NCBI RefSeq assembly: GCF_004403065.1
Contig: NZ_SOHA01000040.1
Coordinates: 1-64,000, forward strand
Length of the DNA: 64,000 nucleotides
Source of the DNA: Cryobacterium cryoconiti
GTDB taxonomy: Bacteria > Actinomycetota > Actinomycetes > Actinomycetales > Microbacteriaceae
Direction of reading: 5' to 3'
Shown in pieces: positions 38,877-47,585 of this stretch. The notes under the pieces were generated by a model. The model ran no database searches and had not been told where the DNA came from. It worked only from the letters and a program-made list of their open reading frames with translations. Positions within the stretch are counted from its first letter, which is position 1. The number at the start of each line of letters is the position of its first letter. Position numbers and translations under genes: made by a program.

Positions 38877-38910
38877 TGACGGCCTGGGGTAATTAGCACT
38901 GCCGGCTTAG

Positions 38911-38942
38911 AAAATTACGAACTTACAGAGTTACGAAGTTGA
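38911..38942. repeat. Centromere-like 8-bp repeats, distal cluster
   Basis: Four 8-bp units in phase: AAAATTAC, GAACTTAC, AGAGTTAC, GAAGTTGA. They overlap the 3' end of the parB-like gene. They match the consensus of the main array at 40003-40340, so the partition complex may also load here. Confidence 0.65.
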
Positions 38943-39340
38943 TCCTCCGTGCTTCCAGCAAGATTGTCGGCCCTGGCCAACAGCAGATCTACGGCTATGC
39001 GGATGAGCGTGTTGTCTGTAATGCGCTCCCCGCCGTCTGTCTTGTTTCGGTTGATTTGGCGAGCCTTTGCCGCGAGGGCATCCATCTGATCTCCGCGTAG
39101 GCGAGTCTCTTTCCGTACGAAGGAAAGATAGTGGGCACCTCCCCCGACATCAGGAGCCTCATTTGGCTCCTTCTGTTTGACTGCCGCACGGCTCGACGGC
39201 GCAGGAGCAATCTCAGGTGCTGGTGCTGGTGCTGGTACTGGTACTGGTACTGATTCAGTCATGACCGGCTCGCGGACGATTGCCTGTGCAGCTTCTCGTT
39301 TTGGATCGCCGAGCAGCTGGGTGAGTTTCGTTCTCGCCAT
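38915..39340 (-). CDS. ParB-like ribbon-helix-helix centromere-binding protein
   Basis: 141 residues from ATG 39340, which overlaps the parA stop by one base (TGATG). There is a disordered N-terminal ~60 residues with a VPVPVPAPAPAPE repeat. A ribbon-helix-helix domain follows: KETRLRGDQMDALAAKARQI as strand and helix, then ITDNTLIRIAVDLLLARAD. This is the arrangement of ParG/omega-type partners of type Ib ParA ATPases: a flexible tail that stimulates ParA and an RHH dimer that binds short DNA repeats, here the 8-bp arrays. Confidence 0.8.
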   Translation of the reverse strand: MARTKLTQLLGDPKREAAQAIVREPVMTESVPVPVPAPAPAPEIAPAPSSRAAVKQKEPNEAPDVGGGAHYLSFVRKETRLRGDQMDALAAKARQINRNKTDGGERITDNTLIRIAVDLLLARADNLAGSTEDQLRNSVSS

Positions 39341-39993
39341 CACTTGCCTCCTTTGGTGTTGGCCCAGTAGGAAACGAGCTCGAGGGCAACTCGTCGGTAG
39401 TCCTCGCGCGCCTTGCTGGCGATTCTGGAGTCCCCGTCTGCGTATTGGGTTACAACACGGCCCTCAATGGGTGCCATCTTGTGGATCTTGTAATCGCGAA
39501 TCGCCGCTTCGAATCGCGCAAAGCCAGCTCCATCTAGTAGCCCCTGGGCATCAACCAGGTCCGACGGAACACGCGGGTCGACCCGATTGACCAGAACCCG
39601 ATAGTTCACGCCGGCCGGGACGACTACCTCATTTATCGTGGCCATCAACGGAGCAAAAGCGAGTGGCGACGGCTCGGTGGGAAGGATCACGAAGTCGGAC
39701 TCCCCCAGGACGGTAGAAAGCACGTCTCGTCCTTCAAGAGAACCTGGGGTGTCAACGAAGACCACGTCATAGGGCAGTTCCCGCAGCCGGGCGAGATTTC
39801 TCGGGTCAGTGTCGTCGGCGACATCGAATGGAAGGCTGTCCCCCGCCCTGTCGGCCCACCACGCTGATGATCCTTGCGGGTCCACGTCGACAACTAGGAC
39901 TCGGGAGTTCTCAGCGCAGACGCTCGCGAGATTCATCACTGTTGTTGTCTTGCCGGCGCCGCCCTTTTGGTTGGCTATTGAAACAATCCGCAT
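39340..39993 (-). CDS. parA: ParA-type partition ATPase
   Basis: 217 residues, the short type Ib size with no N-terminal DNA-binding domain. Deviant Walker [11 protein letters not shown] with Lys10 and Lys15, [13 protein letters not shown], and the Walker B region VVFVDTPGS. It positions plasmid copies by forming ATP-dependent patterns on the nucleoid with the RHH protein encoded next. The operon reads parA then parB, with the centromere array just upstream. Confidence 0.9.
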
Positions 39994-40002
39994 TTGATCT
40001 CC

Positions 40003-40340
40003 GCTCTGTAACTCTGTAAGTTCCAGACTCCGTAAGTATCGAAGTTCGGTTGTTACTAAGTCTGTTAGTTCGAAAGTACCAGAGTCCGGAACCTACAGAC
40101 TCATTCAACTTGCGCGTGTTGCACTTACAAACTTCCGAAGTAACGAACTCCCGTGACACCGGACAATCGGAATTCCAGACTTGCGAAGTTACAGACTCAC
40201 GAAGTTACAGACTCATTAGGCGTTTGGACCGGTTCTTGCAAACGCGCCAATGAACGAATGTGGGCGAAGTTCCGAACTTACGTACTTACGTACTTACGTA
40301 CTTACGTACTTACGTACTTTCGAAGTTACAAAGTTCAAGC
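40003..40340. repeat. parS centromere: phased 8-bp repeat array
   Basis: Upstream of parA. Perfect units GTACTTAC occur five times at about 40278-40317. They are flanked in the same 8-base register by GAACTTAC, GTACTTTC, GAAGTTAC and AAAGTTCA. A second stretch at about 40188-40216 alternates GAAGTTAC and AGACTCA(C/T). Degenerate units (CTCTGTAA, CTCCGTAA, GTATCGAA, GTTCGAAA, GTACCAGA) fill about 40010-40100, also mostly in 8-base phase. Eight-base spacing is what ParG-like RHH dimers use. No gene is present; frames through it are repeat artefacts. Confidence 0.8.
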
Positions 40341-41850: not shown

Positions 41851-41882
41851 GGTGGGGGAGCGCGAGGGGACTCGCCCCTCGC
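41851..41882. terminator. GC-rich 3' hairpin T1
   Basis: On the minus strand GCGAGGGG and CCCCTCGC pair around CGAGT and are followed by GCTCCCCCACC. It lies between the convergent KfrA-like and DUF3846 genes and resembles T2-T4. A second hairpin directly after the DUF3846 stop pairs CACCGGCTGGCC with GGCCAGCCGGTG. Confidence 0.6.
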
Positions 41883-41998: not shown

Positions 41999-42418
41999 CT
42001 AGATGTTGCGGAGCATGCTCACCACGGTGGGGAACGGGGACAGACTCTCCACTAGGGCGTCGACGGTCCCGGCGTCGGGCTTCTGCGCGAAAGACTCCTG
42101 GATCCGGGCGAGCTGGGCGTCGGAGAGGCCGACGGTTTCACCGTCTCCGGTGACGCTGACGGCGATGGCGGTGCCGAAAATGACGGTGCGGGAGCCGAGC
42201 CGGTGGGCGAGCACGGTTGCGGGCAGGTTCAGGGTTGACCCGTTGATGAGTCCTTCATCATCGACGAAGAGGTCGATGTCGTCCTCCAGGCCGACGACGT
42301 CGAACATCCGGCAACCGATGGCGGCGATGATGTCCGCCCCGATGCTGTCCTCGTTCACGTCCAGGACGCTGATGGTTTCGGTCGGGTTGATCTTGACGCT
42401 GCGGATGCTGGTGGTCAT
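41999..42418 (-). CDS. DUF3846 family protein
   Basis: 139 residues from ATG 42418 with GGAGAGAG upstream. VDDEGLINGSTLNLPATVLA and VIFGTAIAVSVTGDGETVGL match the DUF3846 core found on mobile elements. The C-terminus adds a helical segment (LSDAQLARIQESFAQKP). Function unknown. It is the last of the cassette-like minus-strand units and is preceded by leader element E1 with an 80-base gap. Confidence 0.75.
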   Translation of the reverse strand: MTTSIRSVKINPTETISVLDVNEDSIGADIIAAIGCRMFDVVGLEDDIDLFVDDEGLINGSTLNLPATVLAHRLGSRTVIFGTAIAVSVTGDGETVGLSDAQLARIQESFAQKPDAGTVDALVESLSPFPTVVSMLRNI

Positions 42419-42497: not shown

Positions 42498-42654
42498 TTT
42501 TTCTGCCCTTGGTGGCAAGAGAAATCGATTGAGAGCGGGAGTGCCGGAGTGCCCGCAGTCTCGTGCGAAATAAGGGAGCTTGCGACCGCGTGCGAGAGTG
42601 CGGGTGACGCAGGCACGGGAGCGAACTACGATGATTGGCCACCAAGGGAAGAAA
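42498..42654 (-). ncRNA. Repeated structured leader element, copy E1
   Basis: The outer arms TGCCCTTGGTGGC (from about 42504) and GCCACCAAGGGAAGAAA (to 42654) close the element. CCCGCAGTCTCG pairs with CGAGAGTGCGGG, and GTGCC pairs with GGCAC. Unpaired blocks ATCGATTGAGAGCGGGAG, GAAATAAG and GCGAACTACGAT are shared with E2-E4. It lies upstream of the DUF3846 gene. See the finding for the comparison. Confidence 0.7.
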
Positions 42655-42721
42655 TGTTTTGAAAGAGTCAGGCCGGCGCAGCCGGCTCCGTGTGGGTCCG
42701 GCCTCCAGGCCGGATTCACCT

Positions 42722-42756
42722 GGTGGGGGAGTGTGAGGGGGCACCATCCCCCTCAC
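42722..42756 (-). terminator. GC-rich 3' hairpin T2 after the DUF3560 gene
   Basis: On the minus strand GTGAGGGGG and CCCCCTCAC pair around a five-to-six-base loop and are followed by ACTCCCCCACC. It sits 40-70 bases after the stop at 42794. There is no U-tract. Confidence 0.6.
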
Positions 42757-42793
42757 GGCGGTCGGCCCCTCGGCCGGCCGGCCTACGCGGCAG

Positions 42794-43729
42794 TTATTCG
42801 GGCCGCTGGTGCTGCTGGATCTCCGCATACGGGGCGGTATCGGTCCACGTGTAGCCCGTGGTGACGCTGACGGTCTTGGGGTTGGCGCGGACGACTTCGC
42901 GCCACTGGCCGCGGATCTTCACCCGGTCACCCTTCTTCACGGTGCTGCGGTCGTAGCTGGTTGCCGTTCCGCTCTCGATCTGGGCGGCGCGCACGGCTTC
43001 CCAGTACGCGATCTGGTCGCGCTTCTCGGCGAGGTTCGGTGCGAGGTGGTCTGCTCGGGCCTGCTTCTGGGCGTCGGTTGCGTCGATGTAGCCTTGTGCG
43101 TCGTCGTAGCGCGGGGCGATGATGCGTCGTTCTAACTTGCGCAGCTCAGCCCCCAGAGTGTCGATACGGTTGGCCACGGTCAAGGGCCGGTAGCGGGCGT
43201 CGGTGGTGTGCGTGGAGGCGTCGGCACGCGCCTGCGCGTGGGTGGCGTCCGTGCTGGCTTCGACTGATTTACGCATGGCGTTATCTGCTTTGGCGATCGC
43301 GTTGCGGTGGCGACCTTCGGAGTGGTGGCCAATCTTGATCGGTTCTCCTCCTTCGGGCAGGCGGTCAAGCGCGCTCCGGGCGCGGGTCCACGCGGCATCC
43401 TCGGCGGTTGCCTTGCGGTCGGCTGTGGCGGCCAGGGCGTCGACCCGCTCGGCCTGACGTCCGATCTTTCCGGCCTCGACCTCGGCGGTCGTGCGTCGCT
43501 CGTGATTGATGTCGGTTTCGACCTCGAATCCGGCCGCTTCCAAGGCCTCCTGGGTGCGGGTGATGGTGTGGATTTTGGGGAGGCGGTCGCGGGATTGGGG
43601 GACGAACCAGGCGCTGATGCTGCGCCCCCAACGCCAACCAACGGTCTTGAGGACGTCGGCGGTTCCGTCGCCTTTACTGGTGCCGTCGATCATGGTTCCG
43701 GCGGCGTGGCTGTGGGTGATGGTGAGCAT
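42794..43729 (-). CDS. DUF3560 domain protein
   Basis: 311 residues from ATG 43729, with GAGGAAA upstream. An N-terminal ~75 residues (GWRWGRSISAWFVPQSRDR) precede the DUF3560 core RQAERVDALAATADRKATAE, LPEGGEPIKIGHHSEGRHRN. A long helical region and a C-terminal KKGDRVKIRGQWREVVRAN SH3-like strand pair follow. DUF3560 proteins are widespread on actinobacterial and other conjugative plasmids; their function is not established. Second gene of a unit whose first gene is the Cys-rich peptide at 43747-43899. Confidence 0.8.
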   Translation of the reverse strand: MLTITHSHAAGTMIDGTSKGDGTADVLKTVGWRWGRSISAWFVPQSRDRLPKIHTITRTQEALEAAGFEVETDINHERRTTAEVEAGKIGRQAERVDALAATADRKATAEDAAWTRARSALDRLPEGGEPIKIGHHSEGRHRNAIAKADNAMRKSVEASTDATHAQARADASTHTTDARYRPLTVANRIDTLGAELRKLERRIIAPRYDDAQGYIDATDAQKQARADHLAPNLAEKRDQIAYWEAVRAAQIESGTATSYDRSTVKKGDRVKIRGQWREVVRANPKTVSVTTGYTWTDTAPYAEIQQHQRPE

Positions 43730-43746
43730 GATTTCTGTTTCCTCGT

Positions 43747-43899
43747 TTAGGCGAAGCTGTCGGCGTAGCGGGTCGCGGTGCAGGTTTCTCCGGGCTGGGT
43801 ATCTACGGCACCTTCCGAGGTGCACCCGCTGCAAGCGCACCCGTCCGCGTAGCGCTCCCTCGGGTAGGTGTTCTCGTACGGGCAATCGGACTCGACCAT
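43747..43899 (-). CDS. 50-residue cysteine-rich protein
   Basis: From ATG 43899, with GAGGAAAGAG upstream. Five cysteines: DCPYENTYP, GCACSGC and GETCTAT. The C-x-C-x2-C cluster suggests a zinc-binding peptide. It is 17 bases upstream of the DUF3560 gene, so probably co-translated. No family recognised. The ribosome site and position make it a likely real gene despite its size. Confidence 0.6.
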   Translation of the reverse strand: MVESDCPYENTYPRERYADGCACSGCTSEGAVDTQPGETCTATRYADSFA

Positions 43900-43925
43900 G
43901 GGTTCTCTTTCCTCGTGAACAACTG

Positions 43926-44076
43926 TTTTTTTTGCCTGTCTGGCAAGAGAAATCGATAGCGACCGGGAGTGCCGAAGTGCCCGCAGTGCCGGGCGAAATA
44001 AGCCCGCAGGGCGCGTCCGGCACTGTGGGTGACGCAGGCACGGAGGGAGCTACGATGATTGGCCAGATAGGACAAA
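43926..44076 (-). ncRNA. Repeated structured leader element, copy E2
   Basis: Outer arms TTTTGCCTGTCTGGC (ending 43944) and GCCAGATAGGACAAAA (44062-44076 region), pairing with one bulge. CCCGCAGTGCCGG pairs with CCGGCACTGTGGG. The shared blocks ATCGATAGCGACCGGGAG, GAAATAAG and ACTACGAT-like GCTACGAT are present. It lies 27 bases upstream of the Cys-rich gene. Confidence 0.7.
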
Positions 44077-44109
44077 ATGCCCGGCAATCAGCGCCGCACA
44101 GCGGCTCCA

Positions 44110-44175
44110 TATCGCTTCTGACGGCTTCGCCGTCGCAGTTTCATAGTGATATCAGTGTGATATTCCGCTGCGGGG
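44110..44175. repeat. Intergenic block shared with 50340-50400
   Basis: GACGGCTTCGCCGTC, then GATATCAGTGTGATAT and GGGGGAG in this order here. The same order is seen at 50340-50400 as GACGGCATCACCGTC, GTATCACGCTGATAT and GGGGGAG. It has a small hairpin followed by a dyad of TGATAT. It could be a promoter or binding site shared by two units. Confidence 0.55.
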
Positions 44176-44227
44176 GAGTGCGAGGGGGATTTCTCCCCCT
44201 CGCCGGCCAGCTCGGGAGCTGGCCGGC
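44171..44227 (-). terminator. Double GC-rich 3' hairpin T3 after dprA
   Basis: On the minus strand GCCGGCCAGCT/AGCTGGCCGGC forms a perfect stem. It is followed by GCGAGGGGGA/TCCCCCTCGC and then ACTCCCCCGC, the same tail as T1, T2 and T4. It begins 17 bases after the dprA stop. Confidence 0.6.
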
Positions 44228-44243
44228 TGCCCGGCCCGGCGGG

Positions 44244-45183
44244 TTAGGCGGTGGTGAGTGCTGCGGCTTCGTCAGTGGTGCTGATCAGGGTGGCGCCATG
44301 GTCACGGATCAGTCGGGAACACCCGGCGCTGGTCGGGCTCGTGATCGGGCCAGGCACGGCCCCGAGCGGACGGCCGAGCGCTGTGGCGTGTCCGGCCACG
44401 TTCAGGCTCCCGGACCGGAACCCGGCCTCGACGATGAGGACCGCGTCGGTCAGGGCGGCGGCGAGGCGGCCGCGCTGGATGAAGGTCCACTTCGTGGGCG
44501 CCCGGTGCGGGGGCAGCTCGGTCACGATCGCACCCCGCTCGGTGATCCGGGTCAGGAGGTCGCCGTCCCCGGCCGGGAAGGGACGGCCGAGCCCGGACGC
44601 GGACACGACGACCGTGTGCCCGCCGGCCGCGAGGGCGGCCCGGTGGGCCATCCCGGCGAAGCCGTAACTGCCGGTGCCGACGATGATGTGGCCGCGCGCG
44701 ACGAGCCCCGCCGTGATCTCCATGGGGACATGCTCCCCGTACCCGGTGCCCCCCCCCGACCAGGATCCTCGGGACAGCACGAACCAGAAGCCCCGGATCC
44801 CCGGCGACGTAGAGCGCGAACGGGGCCCGGGAGCCCAGGTCCCGGAGCCCGGCCGGCCACCCGTCATCGGATGGGATCAACACCGTGTGCCCGTGCTCGA
44901 TGATCGTGGCCAGTACCTGCCGGAACTCCGCACTCTCCAGTCGGGGCAGGACACGCTCCCGCAGCACGACCACGTCGACGTCCTCGCAGGTCCCGCCGAG
45001 GACCAGGTCCAGGGCTGCGATAGCGCCTTGGTCAGCGATCAGGGCCCCGGCGGTTGCGTCGCCGGGCTCGCACACGATCGTCCACAGGATCCGGGCCAGA
45101 CGTTCACCGCTGAAACCGTGTTCCTGGGACAGTTCAGTCAGGGTGGCAGTCATGGCCGCTGTGCGTGCGGTGGTGGTGTTCAT
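44244..45183 (-). pseudogene. dprA: DprA-like ssDNA-binding protein, frameshifted in a C-run
   Basis: The N-terminal ~145 residues run from ATG 45183 (GAGGGAGAG upstream) to VRAVPRILVGG. The C-terminal ~170 continue in another frame from SGGGTGYGEHVPMEITAGLV to the stop at 44244. The switch is at a run of nine C near 44751-44759. Rejoined it is a full DprA/SMF: a Rossmann-like domain with GSYGFAGMAHRAAL, ELPPHRAP and VPGPITSPTSAGCSRLI. DprA loads RecA on incoming single-stranded DNA, fitting a conjugative plasmid. The run length suggests a sequencing error or a contingency tract rather than decay. Confidence 0.8.
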
Positions 45184-45213
45184 GGTGTGGGTCCTCTCCC
45201 TCAAAACAACGTG

Positions 45214-45368
45214 TTTTTTGCCTTTCCGGCACGAGAGATCGATTGAGAGCGGGAGGCCCGAAGTGCCCAGTTATCGGGGCGAAATAAGGGAGCCTGCGAC
45301 CGCGTCCCGACAACCGGGCACGCAGGGCCGGGAGCGAACTACGATCGGCTGCCGGAAAGGAAAAAAAA
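45214..45368 (-). ncRNA. Repeated structured leader element, copy E3
   Basis: Outer arms TTTTTTGCCTTTCCGGC (45214-45230) and GCCGGAAAGGAAAAAAAA (45351-45368). The pairing sequence differs from E1, E2 and E4 yet is kept complementary. CCCAGTTATCGGG pairs with CCCGACAACCGGG. The middle helix is GGCCC/GGGCC where other copies have GTGCC/GGCAC. It lies 31 bases upstream of dprA. Confidence 0.7.
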
Positions 45369-45507
45369 CGGGGTCAGAACGTGCCGCGCAGCGGCTCACA
45401 AAAAGGCTCTTCCCGGCGCAGCCGGCCCCGACAGGGGATTCCTAACAGGATTCTGTGGCGCTGGCAAGGGGGTTGAATACTGGGCAGGGCGGGGAAACAG
45501 TGGATGG

Positions 45508-45723
45508 ATGAGACAAGTCACTTTCAGCGGGGCGTCTTCCCTGACCGCGGATGCCCTCGCCCGCGTGCTCGGAGATCGCGACCACCAATTTCGACAGCAG
45601 CGACTTCACCGACACCGGCCGCACCCCATGACCACCCCAACCAGGCACAGAGCACGCGGCTTCCTGTACTCCGGGGTGGGACCCATGAGCGTGATTAAGG
45701 AGGGCGTCTCATGGGAAGGCTGA
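45508..45723 (+). CDS. Short protein paired with the DUF7882 gene
   Basis: 71 residues reading MRQVTFSGASSLTADALARV and ending GFLYSGVGPMSVIKEGVSWEG. Start and end resemble the ~65-residue protein that usually precedes DUF7882 genes in Microbacteriaceae, but the middle (HRHRPHPMTT) does not. A shifted frame there reads IATTNFDSSDFTDTG, so two compensating indels may be present. It overlaps the next gene by 13 bases. Confidence 0.45.
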   Translation: MRQVTFSGASSLTADALARVLGDRDHQFRQQRLHRHRPHPMTTPTRHRARGFLYSGVGPMSVIKEGVSWEG

Positions 45724-46031
45724 CCTATAACTCGAGAATGAATATCGATTTCGCGGACCGCACCCTCGCGCACCTGCAAAGCGTCATCAACACCAAACTT
45801 CAACGCGCGGAAGGGTTCCACTTCACCTGGGCCGACGACCCCGCGGGCGGCAGCGGGCGAAACACGATCTGGATTCACCCCGGCATTCCGCTCTCCTTCA
45901 CCTTCACCAGCTCCAAACAGGCCCTACTCAATCAGCGGTGGCTGGAGGCCCTCATCCGCACCGCCAATACCGTTACCGGCCTCGAAGTCGTCCCCGAGCC
46001 ACCCCGTCCGCCCGCCACCGCCCACGCCTGA
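45711..46031 (+). CDS. DUF7882-type protein (MGRLTYNS family)
   Basis: 106 residues. MGRLTYNSRMNIDFADRTLA, FHFTWADDP, GRNTIWIHPGIPLSFTF and WLEALIRTANTVTGL are the hallmark segments of this family, abundant and often multicopy in Microbacteriaceae chromosomes and plasmids. Function unknown. GGAGGG lies before the ATG. A useful taxonomic marker for the host. Confidence 0.8.
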   Translation: MGRLTYNSRMNIDFADRTLAHLQSVINTKLQRAEGFHFTWADDPAGGSGRNTIWIHPGIPLSFTFTSSKQALLNQRWLEALIRTANTVTGLEVVPEPPRPPATAHA

Positions 46032-46073
46032 ACACTTCTCCTTGCCAGGGGCTGCTGGCACATCGGCTCGGGG

Positions 46074-46442
46074 TCACGGTGCGGATCGGGTATCCGAGGT
46101 GGTTCCGGAAAACATCCGCTCGAGCGGGTCCACGTCGTCCTGGCCACCGCCGCCAAGTAGGGCCGGCAGGAACCGGGCCAACGCGTCGAACCCGGCCTCC
46201 TGATCCGGATACACGCCGAGAGAGACCAGGTGGGTGTCTCCGCTGGACAGGGTCAGGTTCAGGCACGGGTAGTGCTCCTCCGCCGTGATACCCAACCGGA
46301 CGGCATCCGCGAACGTGTTGCTGCCCAGCTGCTCCTGGATGGACACAACCTGGTCCAGGTTGACCCAGATGTCGTCGGCGCCGACCACGGGCCGGGACCA
46401 GCCCTGACCGGGGGTAGCGACGGCGAGTTTGATGAAGCGCAT
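46074..46442 (-). CDS. Hypothetical protein
   Basis: 122 residues. DDIWVNLDQVVSIQEQLG, YPCLNLTLSSGDTHLVSLGV and a helical end before a variable tail suggest a small beta-rich fold. No family recognised. Isolated minus-strand gene between the DUF7882 gene and T4, without an E element. Confidence 0.6.
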   Translation of the reverse strand: MRFIKLAVATPGQGWSRPVVGADDIWVNLDQVVSIQEQLGSNTFADAVRLGITAEEHYPCLNLTLSSGDTHLVSLGVYPDQEAGFDALARFLPALLGGGGQDDVDPLERMFSGTTSDTRSAP

Positions 46443-46532
46443 GTGATGTCCGATCAGTAGAGAGACCTCGACGCTAAAACGCTCCCCGCCGCGACCGCCC
46501 TAATCCCGTGTACCTGTGGAGAACCCGGCGCA

Positions 46533-46568
46533 CCGGGGGAGTGTGAGGGGCGTGCTGGCCCCACACCC
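46533..46568 (-). terminator. GC-rich 3' hairpin T4
   Basis: On the minus strand GTGTGGGGCC and GCCCCTCACAC pair around a short loop, followed by TCCCCCGG. It sits about 35 bases after the stop of the gene at 46604-47266 and has the same tail as T1-T3. Confidence 0.55.
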
Positions 46569-46603
46569 GTTGCCACCCCCGCCGGGGTGGCCACGAGGCA
46601 CGG

Positions 46604-47266
46604 CTAGCGGCGGTTCGTGGCGGTGAGGGCAATTTCCAGGGCCCGGGCCTCACTCATCCCGATAGGACGAATAACGTTTCTGCTATACCGTTTGGTCTTC
46701 TTCACCCGGGTGGTCCCGGTGTACCCGGCGGGGCCATCCTGCGCAGGACCATACAGGGGGTGCACCAGCAACCACTGGATGAAGAGCAAGGCCGGGGCCG
46801 CCACTCGGCGGCGAAAGCGAGGGGTGGGGTTCGCGCACAGGGCCCAAAACCGGGCCGCCTCACCCCGGGCTGCGAGCCGGTCGGCGACCGGGATCGGGAC
46901 CGCCCGGGGCGGGTGCATGAGCTTGATCGTGGAGACGTGCACGTAAGCCTGCAGCGCGGAATCATCCCGGGCCGGGATCTCCTCCGCCAACTCTCGGACG
47001 GCGCGCCGGATGCGGGCGGTGATCCGGTCGGTGCGGGTGTCGTGGGGGTGGGTGCGCATCCACGCGGCGGCTTCGAGGACACAGCAAACCAGGCTCCACT
47101 CGTAGCTGTAAAAGCGCAGCAGAGAAGCCACATCCCGGTTCCAACTGCTGCGCTTGTACGGGTTTTCGGTGTCGTAGCGGGCGAAGAAAGCGGTGCCGGC
47201 TTTCCGGTCGGCTGCGATCTGGTCACTGGTGCGCTGGGGCCGAACCTCGACAAGGAACTGGGACAT
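46604..47266 (-). CDS. Hypothetical plasmid protein
   Basis: 220 residues. Mainly helical: SSWNRDVASLLRFYSYEWSL, WMRTHPHDTRTDRITARIRR, LQAYVHVSTIKLMHPPRAVP. The basic C-terminus carries TRVKKTKRYSRNVIRP. No known family. First gene after leader element E4, 21 bases away, with GCGGAGAG as ribosome site. Its bracketing by E4 and T4 makes it a complete cassette. Confidence 0.65.
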   Translation of the reverse strand: MSQFLVEVRPQRTSDQIAADRKAGTAFFARYDTENPYKRSSWNRDVASLLRFYSYEWSLVCCVLEAAAWMRTHPHDTRTDRITARIRRAVRELAEEIPARDDSALQAYVHVSTIKLMHPPRAVPIPVADRLAARGEAARFWALCANPTPRFRRRVAAPALLFIQWLLVHPLYGPAQDGPAGYTGTTRVKKTKRYSRNVIRPIGMSEARALEIALTATNRR

Positions 47267-47286
47267 GGAACTCTCCGCTCAACTGA

Positions 47287-47439
47287 TTTTTTTGCCTGTC
47301 TGGCAAGAGAATCGATTGAGAGCGGGAGTGCCGAAGAGCCCGAATTATCGAGGGAAATAAGCCCGCCAGGGCGCGCTCGATATACCGGGCACGCAGGCAC
47401 GCAAAGCGAACTACGATGACCGGCCAGACAGACAAAAAA
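47287..47439 (-). ncRNA. Repeated structured leader element, copy E4
   Basis: Outer arms TTTTTTGCCTGTCTGGC (to 47304) and GCCAGACAGACAAAAAA (47423-47439) pair over 17 positions with one C-A (a G-U on the minus strand). CCCGAATTATCGAG pairs with CTCGATATACCGGG around a small GCCC/GGGC hairpin. GTGCC pairs with GGCAC. Blocks ATCGATTGAGAGCGGGAG, GAAATAAG and GCGAACTACGAT are present. Confidence 0.7.
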
Positions 47440-47585
47440 GTCTTCAAACCAGCACGGCCGCGCAGCGGTCAACATGCCGGAACGGCCCCACCACACGGCG
47501 GCAGCCGAAACCCTCACTCCACGTCATCCAACACAGATGACCGGAACCCGCTTCGTCGTAATCCGACAACCCACCCCTAATAACA

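Follow-up and report, generated by a model that had tools for sequence, protein, structure and literature searches.

The window analysed here is a 64,000-nucleotide (nt) stretch of Cryobacterium cryoconiti DNA (NZ_SOHA01000040.1, positions 1 to 64,000), which lies in a contig of 113,296 bp (C26) of a draft genome. It carries four copies of a structured element of about 155 nt and, judging from their sequence features, we propose that these elements are probably promoters that work on single-stranded DNA (ssDNA), i.e. candidates for a new class of such promoters that would allow zygotic (recipient-first) gene expression. The element itself is real, widespread and covarying. Its copies, with boundaries drawn by a covariance model, are E1 (42499-42654; 170.8 bits with model R1), located 5' of a DUF3846 gene; E2 (43927-44078; 160.6 bits), 5' of a Cys-rich open reading frame (ORF) of 50 amino acids (aa) and a DUF3560 gene; E3 (45213-45367; 165.0 bits), 5' of a DprA-like gene; and E4 (47287-47439; 147.9 bits), 5' of a gene for a 220-aa protein. 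In each case it is the plus strand that folds, and a minus-strand gene adjoins each copy, as a sequence-only reading of this DNA had noted, placing the four copies correctly within 2 bases. According to BLAST and the first covariance model, the source genome contains these four copies, all within the window. Exact matches of at least 30 between the start and the end of contig C26 were not seen; circularity of the contig is not supported.

Folding and comparison of the four copies gave one common fold, a single long hairpin, composed of a closing helix of variable sequence, helices of 4 bp, 2 bp and 5 bp (the last being the middle helix) and an inner helix that carries an apical module (GCGAAATAAG... 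or similar in E1-E4). Closing helices that differ in sequence and yet stay complementary, already pointed out in the sequence-only reading, are indeed present; the middle helix does occur as GTGCC/GGCAC and as GGCCC/GGGCC, and the inner helix does change between copies. The same reading had also described nearly invariant unpaired blocks, and this description had to be corrected in two respects, as the blocks differ in E2 (ATCGATAGCGACCGGGAG, GAGGGAGCTACGAT), and the ATCG/CGAT within them, which makes up the 4-bp helix in the majority of copies, is paired.

Two-sided changes were found at 15 of the 36 predicted pairs in a MAFFT alignment of 12 copies. Covariation among more homologues had been set as the check on the fold, and in a set of 130 copies (E up to 1e-11; 65 sources, 127 distinct sequences), whose alignment was fitted to the model and hence favours the structure, two-sided changes occur at 33 of the 36 pairs, with 91.5% of cells paired. 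The covariation score of this alignment was 0.481 versus 0.152 in shuffles, none of 500 shuffles reached it on any of five measures, and pairing fell to 33-46% when one arm was shifted by 1-3 columns. Both the 12-copy MAFFT alignment and the strand-neutral pair counts given below agree with the 130-copy structure. The strong covariation in 130 relatives thus supports the idea, raised from the letters of the window, of a functional folded RNA or ssDNA. That no named family could be recognised is borne out by Rfam, which gave no matches in the window at gathering score and, with E as high as 5, still none to the elements. In plasmid records, 30 of the 33 best places have no annotated feature underneath, in a gene table that is incomplete.

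Relatives of the element are found mainly in one family. BLAST with E1 matched 33 of 72,556 plasmid records, from Clavibacter (16), Curtobacterium (6), Cryobacterium (5), Arthrobacter (2) and, with one record each, Mycetocola, Brachybacterium, Leifsonia and Frigoribacterium; query coverage was at least 80% in six of these 33 records, while many others matched the apical part only. The first covariance model, built from 12 copies with an RNAalifold consensus structure, detected the element in at least 67 of 398 sampled Microbacteriaceae genomes, representing at least 30 of 85 genera. Under strict filters, the full element was present in 7 of 396 genomes of an order-wide sample and in 4 of 394 genomes of a class-wide sample, all of them Microbacteriaceae. 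We fetched 60 stretches and collected 152 model matches over 70 sources. The apical module alone, searched as one exact pattern, occurs in 76 stretches, chiefly from Cryobacterium and other Microbacteriaceae, and also from Nesterenkonia, Kocuria, Enteractinococcus, Brachybacterium and Oerskovia. It is also found in a second class of elements (class II), which are about 200 nt long and have a different closing helix (GCCGTGAAGGC/GCCTTCACGGC). Elements from the same locus are 69.6% alike (n=113), as against 59.0% for elements that precede the same gene cluster at different loci (n=750); the elements are therefore not strictly gene-specific.

The question of which strand folds was approached through one-sided changes, since a change kept as a G.T mispair on the strand in use reads as A.C on the other. 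In strand-neutral MAFFT alignments, with pairs fixed from E1 (forbidding G-U instead left 5 pairs), G.T outnumbered A.C by 129:20 in 49 sequences (columns 21:3, sign test 0.0003), by 180:41 in 67 sequences (columns 24:7, sign test 0.003) and by 216:93 in 94 sequences (columns 23:8, sign test 0.01). As A.C was rarer than G.T in all three counts, pairing kept on the mRNA strand was not seen. With DNA energy parameters, 92 of 94 non-redundant copies fold more stably as the plus strand than as its complement, the mean folding energies being -36.5 and -30.0 kcal/mol, respectively, and on the plus strand 74.7% of unpaired positions are purines. On the basis of the G.T bias, the energies and the purine-rich loops, we conclude that the strand that folds is complementary to the downstream mRNA and is thus the template of the gene. 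The apical loops were classed among 150 rows, which include related sequences and two duplicates; 101 rows have loops of other kinds and were left unclassed, and among the 49 of the CCC..GGG kind there are 37 C-GNA-G triloops, with all four bases at N, seven C-GNNA-G tetraloops (GTCA, GCCA, GACA; none of them GNRA) and five other loops. GNA and GNNA loops with C-G closure are unusually stable DNA loops, so this composition would favour DNA over RNA. Taken together, the excess of G.T over A.C, the purine-rich loops, the C-GNA-G loops, and a TAnnnT motif that is directed at the gene only when the plus strand folds make ssDNA of the plus strand, rather than RNA, most likely the folded form.

This motif lies in the 3' arm and reads TACGAT on the plus strand of all four copies in the window, where it is the proposed -10 box (E1, 42627-42632; E2, 44051-44056; E3, 45340-45345; E4, 47412-47417). 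It is found in all 130 members, with T and A invariant in 130 of 130 and the final T likewise present in every copy (126 in one column and four shifted by an alignment column); TACGAT accounts for 73 of them, TAGGTT for 21 and TACGGT for 19, the rest being other variants. The three middle bases vary and covary with the 5' arm, as two-sided changes at 3 of the 4 pairs of helix 2 show; nnnT is paired, TA sits in an internal loop, and 7-8 nt separate the box from the inner end of the closing helix. Among 57 further elements from contigs carrying the apical module, which are not near-identical to the first set and come partly from the same genera or genomes, 55 have TAnnnT, and the two that miss it resemble class II. 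Out of 20 class II candidates, two proved to be class I, one was ambiguous, 12 have a box a few bases ahead of their own closing helix (TAnnnT in eight, CAnnnT in four) and the remaining five have none. Class II elements L111, L112, L116, L119 and L191 have an extra small hairpin, and no TAnnnT stands beside their closing helix.

In the duplex, TAnnnT is directed away from the gene, and only the folded plus strand aims the box at it. The opposite, gene-directed strand of the duplex carries TAnnnT in merely 2% of 5' arms, 5% of 3' arms and 5% of the 100-nt stretches upstream (94 copies), whereas means for dinucleotide shuffles were 9%, 35% and 17%, respectively, with the real values below all 100 shuffles; background windows gave 13%. 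Dinucleotide shuffles were used because mononucleotide ones overstate the depletion. TAnnnT has the pattern of a -10 box, and we suppose that it would also act as one.

The following scenario is proposed from these features. When the plasmid enters a recipient as ssDNA, the plus strand of each element would fold into the long hairpin, in which the 3' arm, as the non-template strand, would supply the TAnnnT -10 box opposite the 5' arm, with TA in the internal loop as if pre-melted. The 5' arm would serve as the template and pass without a break into that of the adjacent gene. Transcription by RNA polymerase would begin about 7-8 nt past the box, at the inner end of the closing helix, and would proceed out through the base of the hairpin, so that the gene would be transcribed off ssDNA; copies whose start codon lies at 20-29 nt would then have a leader of some 40 nt. 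Once the complementary strand is made, the hairpin would be lost, TAnnnT would point away from the gene, and expression would stop. The timing, the start point and the lack of a conventional promoter for these genes are what we infer here, and a conventional promoter further upstream might serve them.

The position of the elements relative to genes fits this scenario. After two overlapping duplicates and four pieces of at most 100 nt had been dropped from 150 rows, 144 elements were kept, and in 141 of them an ORF of at least 60 aa, directed away from the element, begins at most 260 nt off its 5' side. In 73 of these 141, about half of the copies, 20-29 nt separate the element from the start codon; starts on the other side show a flat spread. 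The proteins encoded behind the 141 elements form clusters, named from one or two members each: ParB-like (25), NrdH glutaredoxin (15), DprA-like (13), DUF3846 (12), ArdC (11), a short family of about 100 aa (11), a 220-aa family (7), DUF3560 (6) and smaller groups. In annotated plasmids an SSB gene adjoins NrdH. Genes of the leading-region or establishment type are therefore found directly downstream of the elements, as they are with the Frpo/ssi (single-strand initiation) promoters, and the genes behind the elements are probably those that a plasmid needs on arrival in a new cell. For instance, ArdC of plasmid R388 is described as dispensable in the donor but required in the recipient (PMC7213743).

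If the elements act on a transferred strand, their orientation on plasmids is of importance. Eighteen plasmid records were searched whole with the model, and 17 have matches, some of them to the apical part only (in W15, a plasmid with a relaxase, two BLAST places fell below the model threshold and were left out of the counts). All matches are on one strand in each of the 11 records that have at least two. On the 10 plasmid records with both matches and a TrwC (MOBF) relaxase, all 23 elements lie on the strand opposite the relaxase gene, and so do all four in the contig of the window (relaxase gene at C26:108169-109362, minus strand); the driven genes and the relaxase gene therefore run the same way. 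In plasmid F, where genes are arranged like this, the transferred strand serves as template for leading and relaxase genes alike. The tra genes of F share their direction with the antirestriction, SSB, ParB-like and psiB genes of its leading region, which served for comparison. By this analogy, and with the transferred strand deduced from the direction of the relaxase gene, 27 of 27 elements on 11 of 11 MOBF replicons would lie on the strand expected to be transferred.

A number of observations weigh against the proposal that the elements are ssDNA promoters of the transferred strand. Several of the plasmids just mentioned are interrelated, and on some of them (e.g. W01, W05) tens of kb separate the elements from the relaxase gene. 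Start codons were picked with a score that combines start codon, Shine-Dalgarno match and length, and individual distances may therefore be off. No TTGACA-like -35 hexamer was seen in the elements, just a partly conserved ACG about 16 nt upstream. Five class II relatives are without TAnnnT at the expected place; the middle of the element is not depleted in gene-strand TAnnnT (28%, shuffles 25%), and in the leader the value of 0%, as against a shuffle mean of 4% and a minimum of 0, comes from a stretch too short to be informative. In the 39 fetched loci that have at least two elements, all elements share one strand at 22 loci and are split between both strands at 17. On chromosomal contigs, a hand tally of the matches listed within about 70 kb of TrwC gave 15 elements on the expected strand and 14 on the other, and 13 of these 14 rule-breaking elements precede a gene of the short, approximately 100-aa family (L068, L071, L082, L083, L084, L091, L106 and L201-L206, all chromosomal conjugative-type loci). 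They often form a divergent pair with a rule-obeying ArdC or ParB element. Where the short gene is located just upstream of the relaxase gene, the rule was obeyed in four cases (L090, L092, L093, L094). Ten other loci are also mixed (L049, L051, L052, L058, L062, L067, L076, L081, L085 and L088). A model confined to the transferred strand leaves the mixed-strand cases unexplained.

One possible explanation, to which we give a minor share of our confidence, is that actinobacterial plasmids and chromosomal conjugative elements employ an independently evolved class of ssDNA promoters, with a fold of its own, whose logic involves both strands. In such a case, copies on the transferred strand would fire in the recipient, and opposite copies, above all those before the short gene family, might fire on the single strand remaining in the donor, or upon uptake of ssDNA of either polarity.

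On the other hand, elements on both strands in 17 of 39 loci, divergent pairs included, would be natural for structured RNA leaders, and this is the next explanation to be considered. The element would then be the 5' untranslated region of the minus-strand mRNAs, with a regulatory role (riboswitch, attenuator or antiterminator), perhaps like EGeRS1 of plasmid pLS20. Its location directly 5' of start codons and its strongly conserved fold would suit a leader, and in pLS20 the EGeRS1 regions, which are likewise repeated and structured and precede ardC, were judged unlikely to be ssDNA promoters (PMC8708921). However, both the tolerated G.T mispairs and the purine-rich unpaired positions are located on the complement of the mRNA, the invariant TAnnnT lies on the strand from which it could not promote these genes in duplex DNA, and TAnnnT is scarce on the gene strand over the 100 nt just upstream (5% of 94). 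We thus consider an RNA leader unlikely.

A folding plus strand would also be compatible with a single-strand initiation site, i.e. a hairpin for primer synthesis by RNA polymerase or primase after conjugation or during rolling-circle replication. Frpo of F has been described as both a promoter and a primer site (PMC8744291), and the elements occur on plasmids typed as MOBF, MOBP and MOBC. Nevertheless, priming needs no copy per gene at 20-29 nt from the start codon (73 of 141), and plasmids carry up to five copies, which makes this idea quite improbable. Still less credible is a hairpin promoter extruded as a cruciform from duplex DNA, in either orientation and at any time; it would account for the both-strand loci, but a cruciform needs pairing of both strands, while one-sided changes are kept mostly as G.T on one, and the elements are confined to one strand on plasmid records. 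Finally, a recombination site or small mobile element (an attC-like cassette site, a miniature inverted-repeat transposable element or an insertion sequence remnant) could be suggested by a folded single strand repeated between same-orientation genes in the window, but it can hardly be upheld with arms that differ among copies and remain complementary and with a preferred start-codon distance, although no search for integrases or insertion sequences was made.

Several known systems deserve comparison with the proposed ssDNA promoters. Frpo is reported to fold as ssDNA, to rebuild -10 and -35 boxes in this form and to be required in vivo for early expression of leading genes (PMC9849209). A large survey used BLAST and a consensus search to identify Frpo homologues and Frpo-like candidates in leading regions, and also ssDNA-promoter candidates in an insect metagenome; the words Actinobacteria and Actinomycet do not occur in its main text (PMC11541004), and a later survey is described as having taken its sequences as queries (PMC12826799). 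In the open-access literature, we found no report of ssDNA promoters in actinobacteria. Like Frpo/ssi of F, ColIb-P9 and their relatives, the element is a repeated hairpin before leading-region operons (SSB, ParB-like, antirestriction), forms a stable stem-loop on the template strand with a predicted -10-like box rebuilt in the fold, and precedes genes that run the same way as the relaxase and tra genes. Unlike Frpo, which is 328 bp long (PMC8744291), it measures about 155 nt. It also differs from Frpo/ssi in its TAnnnT box and indistinct -35, in being found in Micrococcales and not in enterobacteria, and in its many both-strand loci. Covariance model R2 found nothing in positions 47000-68000 of F, which hold the leading region, although no BLAST with Frpo was made, and the published -35 and -10 boxes could not be picked out in the Frpo sequence. 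Arguing by analogy, we think it most likely that the element works like Frpo without a detectable relation to that family.

EGeRS1 of the pLS20-family plasmids of Bacillus comprises repeated, structured regions of 400-600 bp before establishment genes, ardC included; no promoter is reported to have been found in the fold, the transferred strand is given as the non-template one, and its authors regard an ssDNA promoter as highly unlikely (PMC8708921). Compared by description, our element resembles EGeRS1 in being repeated and structured and in preceding, in several copies, establishment genes including ardC, but it is shorter, about 155 nt for the element and 200 nt for class II. Single-strand origins (sso/ssi) of rolling-circle and conjugative plasmids are also folded ssDNA recognised by RNA polymerase, although there is usually one per plasmid and it is linked to replication rather than to start codons; the element shares with them the folded ssDNA, and differs in its several copies tied to start codons. 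The promoters of the phage N4 virion RNA polymerase are active as a tiny DNA hairpin with a small stable loop. With a tiny hairpin and a phage polymerase, they are unlike the element, and no relationship is proposed.

Within the window, all genes behind the elements are on the minus strand. The DUF3846 gene (139 aa, 41999-42418; PF12957, E 2.5e-15) has its start codon 80 nt from the edge of E1. Behind E2, the first ORF is the 50-aa Cys-rich one (43747-43899), 27 nt from the edge of the element, and the second is the DUF3560 gene (312 aa, 42794-43732; PF12083, E 9.4e-17). The 220-aa gene (46604-47266), with its ATG 20 nt from E4, belongs to the cluster of seven mentioned above, and a Pfam search of its product gave no match. 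The DprA-like gene (about 44244-45183; PF02481, E 4.9e-37 on 44244-44867), with its ATG 29 nt from E3, reads in two overlapping frames, the break lying close to a homopolymer run, and this could be either a real frameshift or a sequencing error. A 315-aa relative sits behind an element in L095. As for the short family of about 100 aa, many members begin with MRVF and none has a Pfam match worth naming (of four proteins searched, three had no match and one was far below the cut-off, E 0.27); the 11 short proteins should not be called 'mini-DprA', since a single weak link (E 5.6e-6) connects them with the DprA cluster.

Outside the elements, GC-rich inverted repeats (GGGGGAGTGTGAGGGG...) follow transcription units at 41863, 42725, 44172 and 46535 of the window. 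They may be terminators, in which case every unit would require a separate promoter. Many of 30 elements listed have a small palindrome resembling GCCGCGCAGCGGC about 20-35 nt past their 3' edge, and in the right flanks of the window copies it is located at 42672-42690, 44087-44103, 45380-45398 and 47455-47470. Clusters of short direct repeats (ACGTACTT, CGAAGTTACAGACTCA) at 38902-40338, upstream of a ParA-type gene, are perhaps a partition or replication site.

Promoters active on ssDNA explain how plasmids arm themselves before they become double-stranded, and so far they have been known mainly from plasmids of Escherichia coli and its relatives. If our proposal is true, a second, unrelated class would suggest that this strategy evolved more than once, and over a hundred natural sequences would be at hand for deriving promoter rules. 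The 220-aa family, DUF3846, DUF3560 and the short opposite-strand family would then become candidates for early establishment or anti-defence functions.

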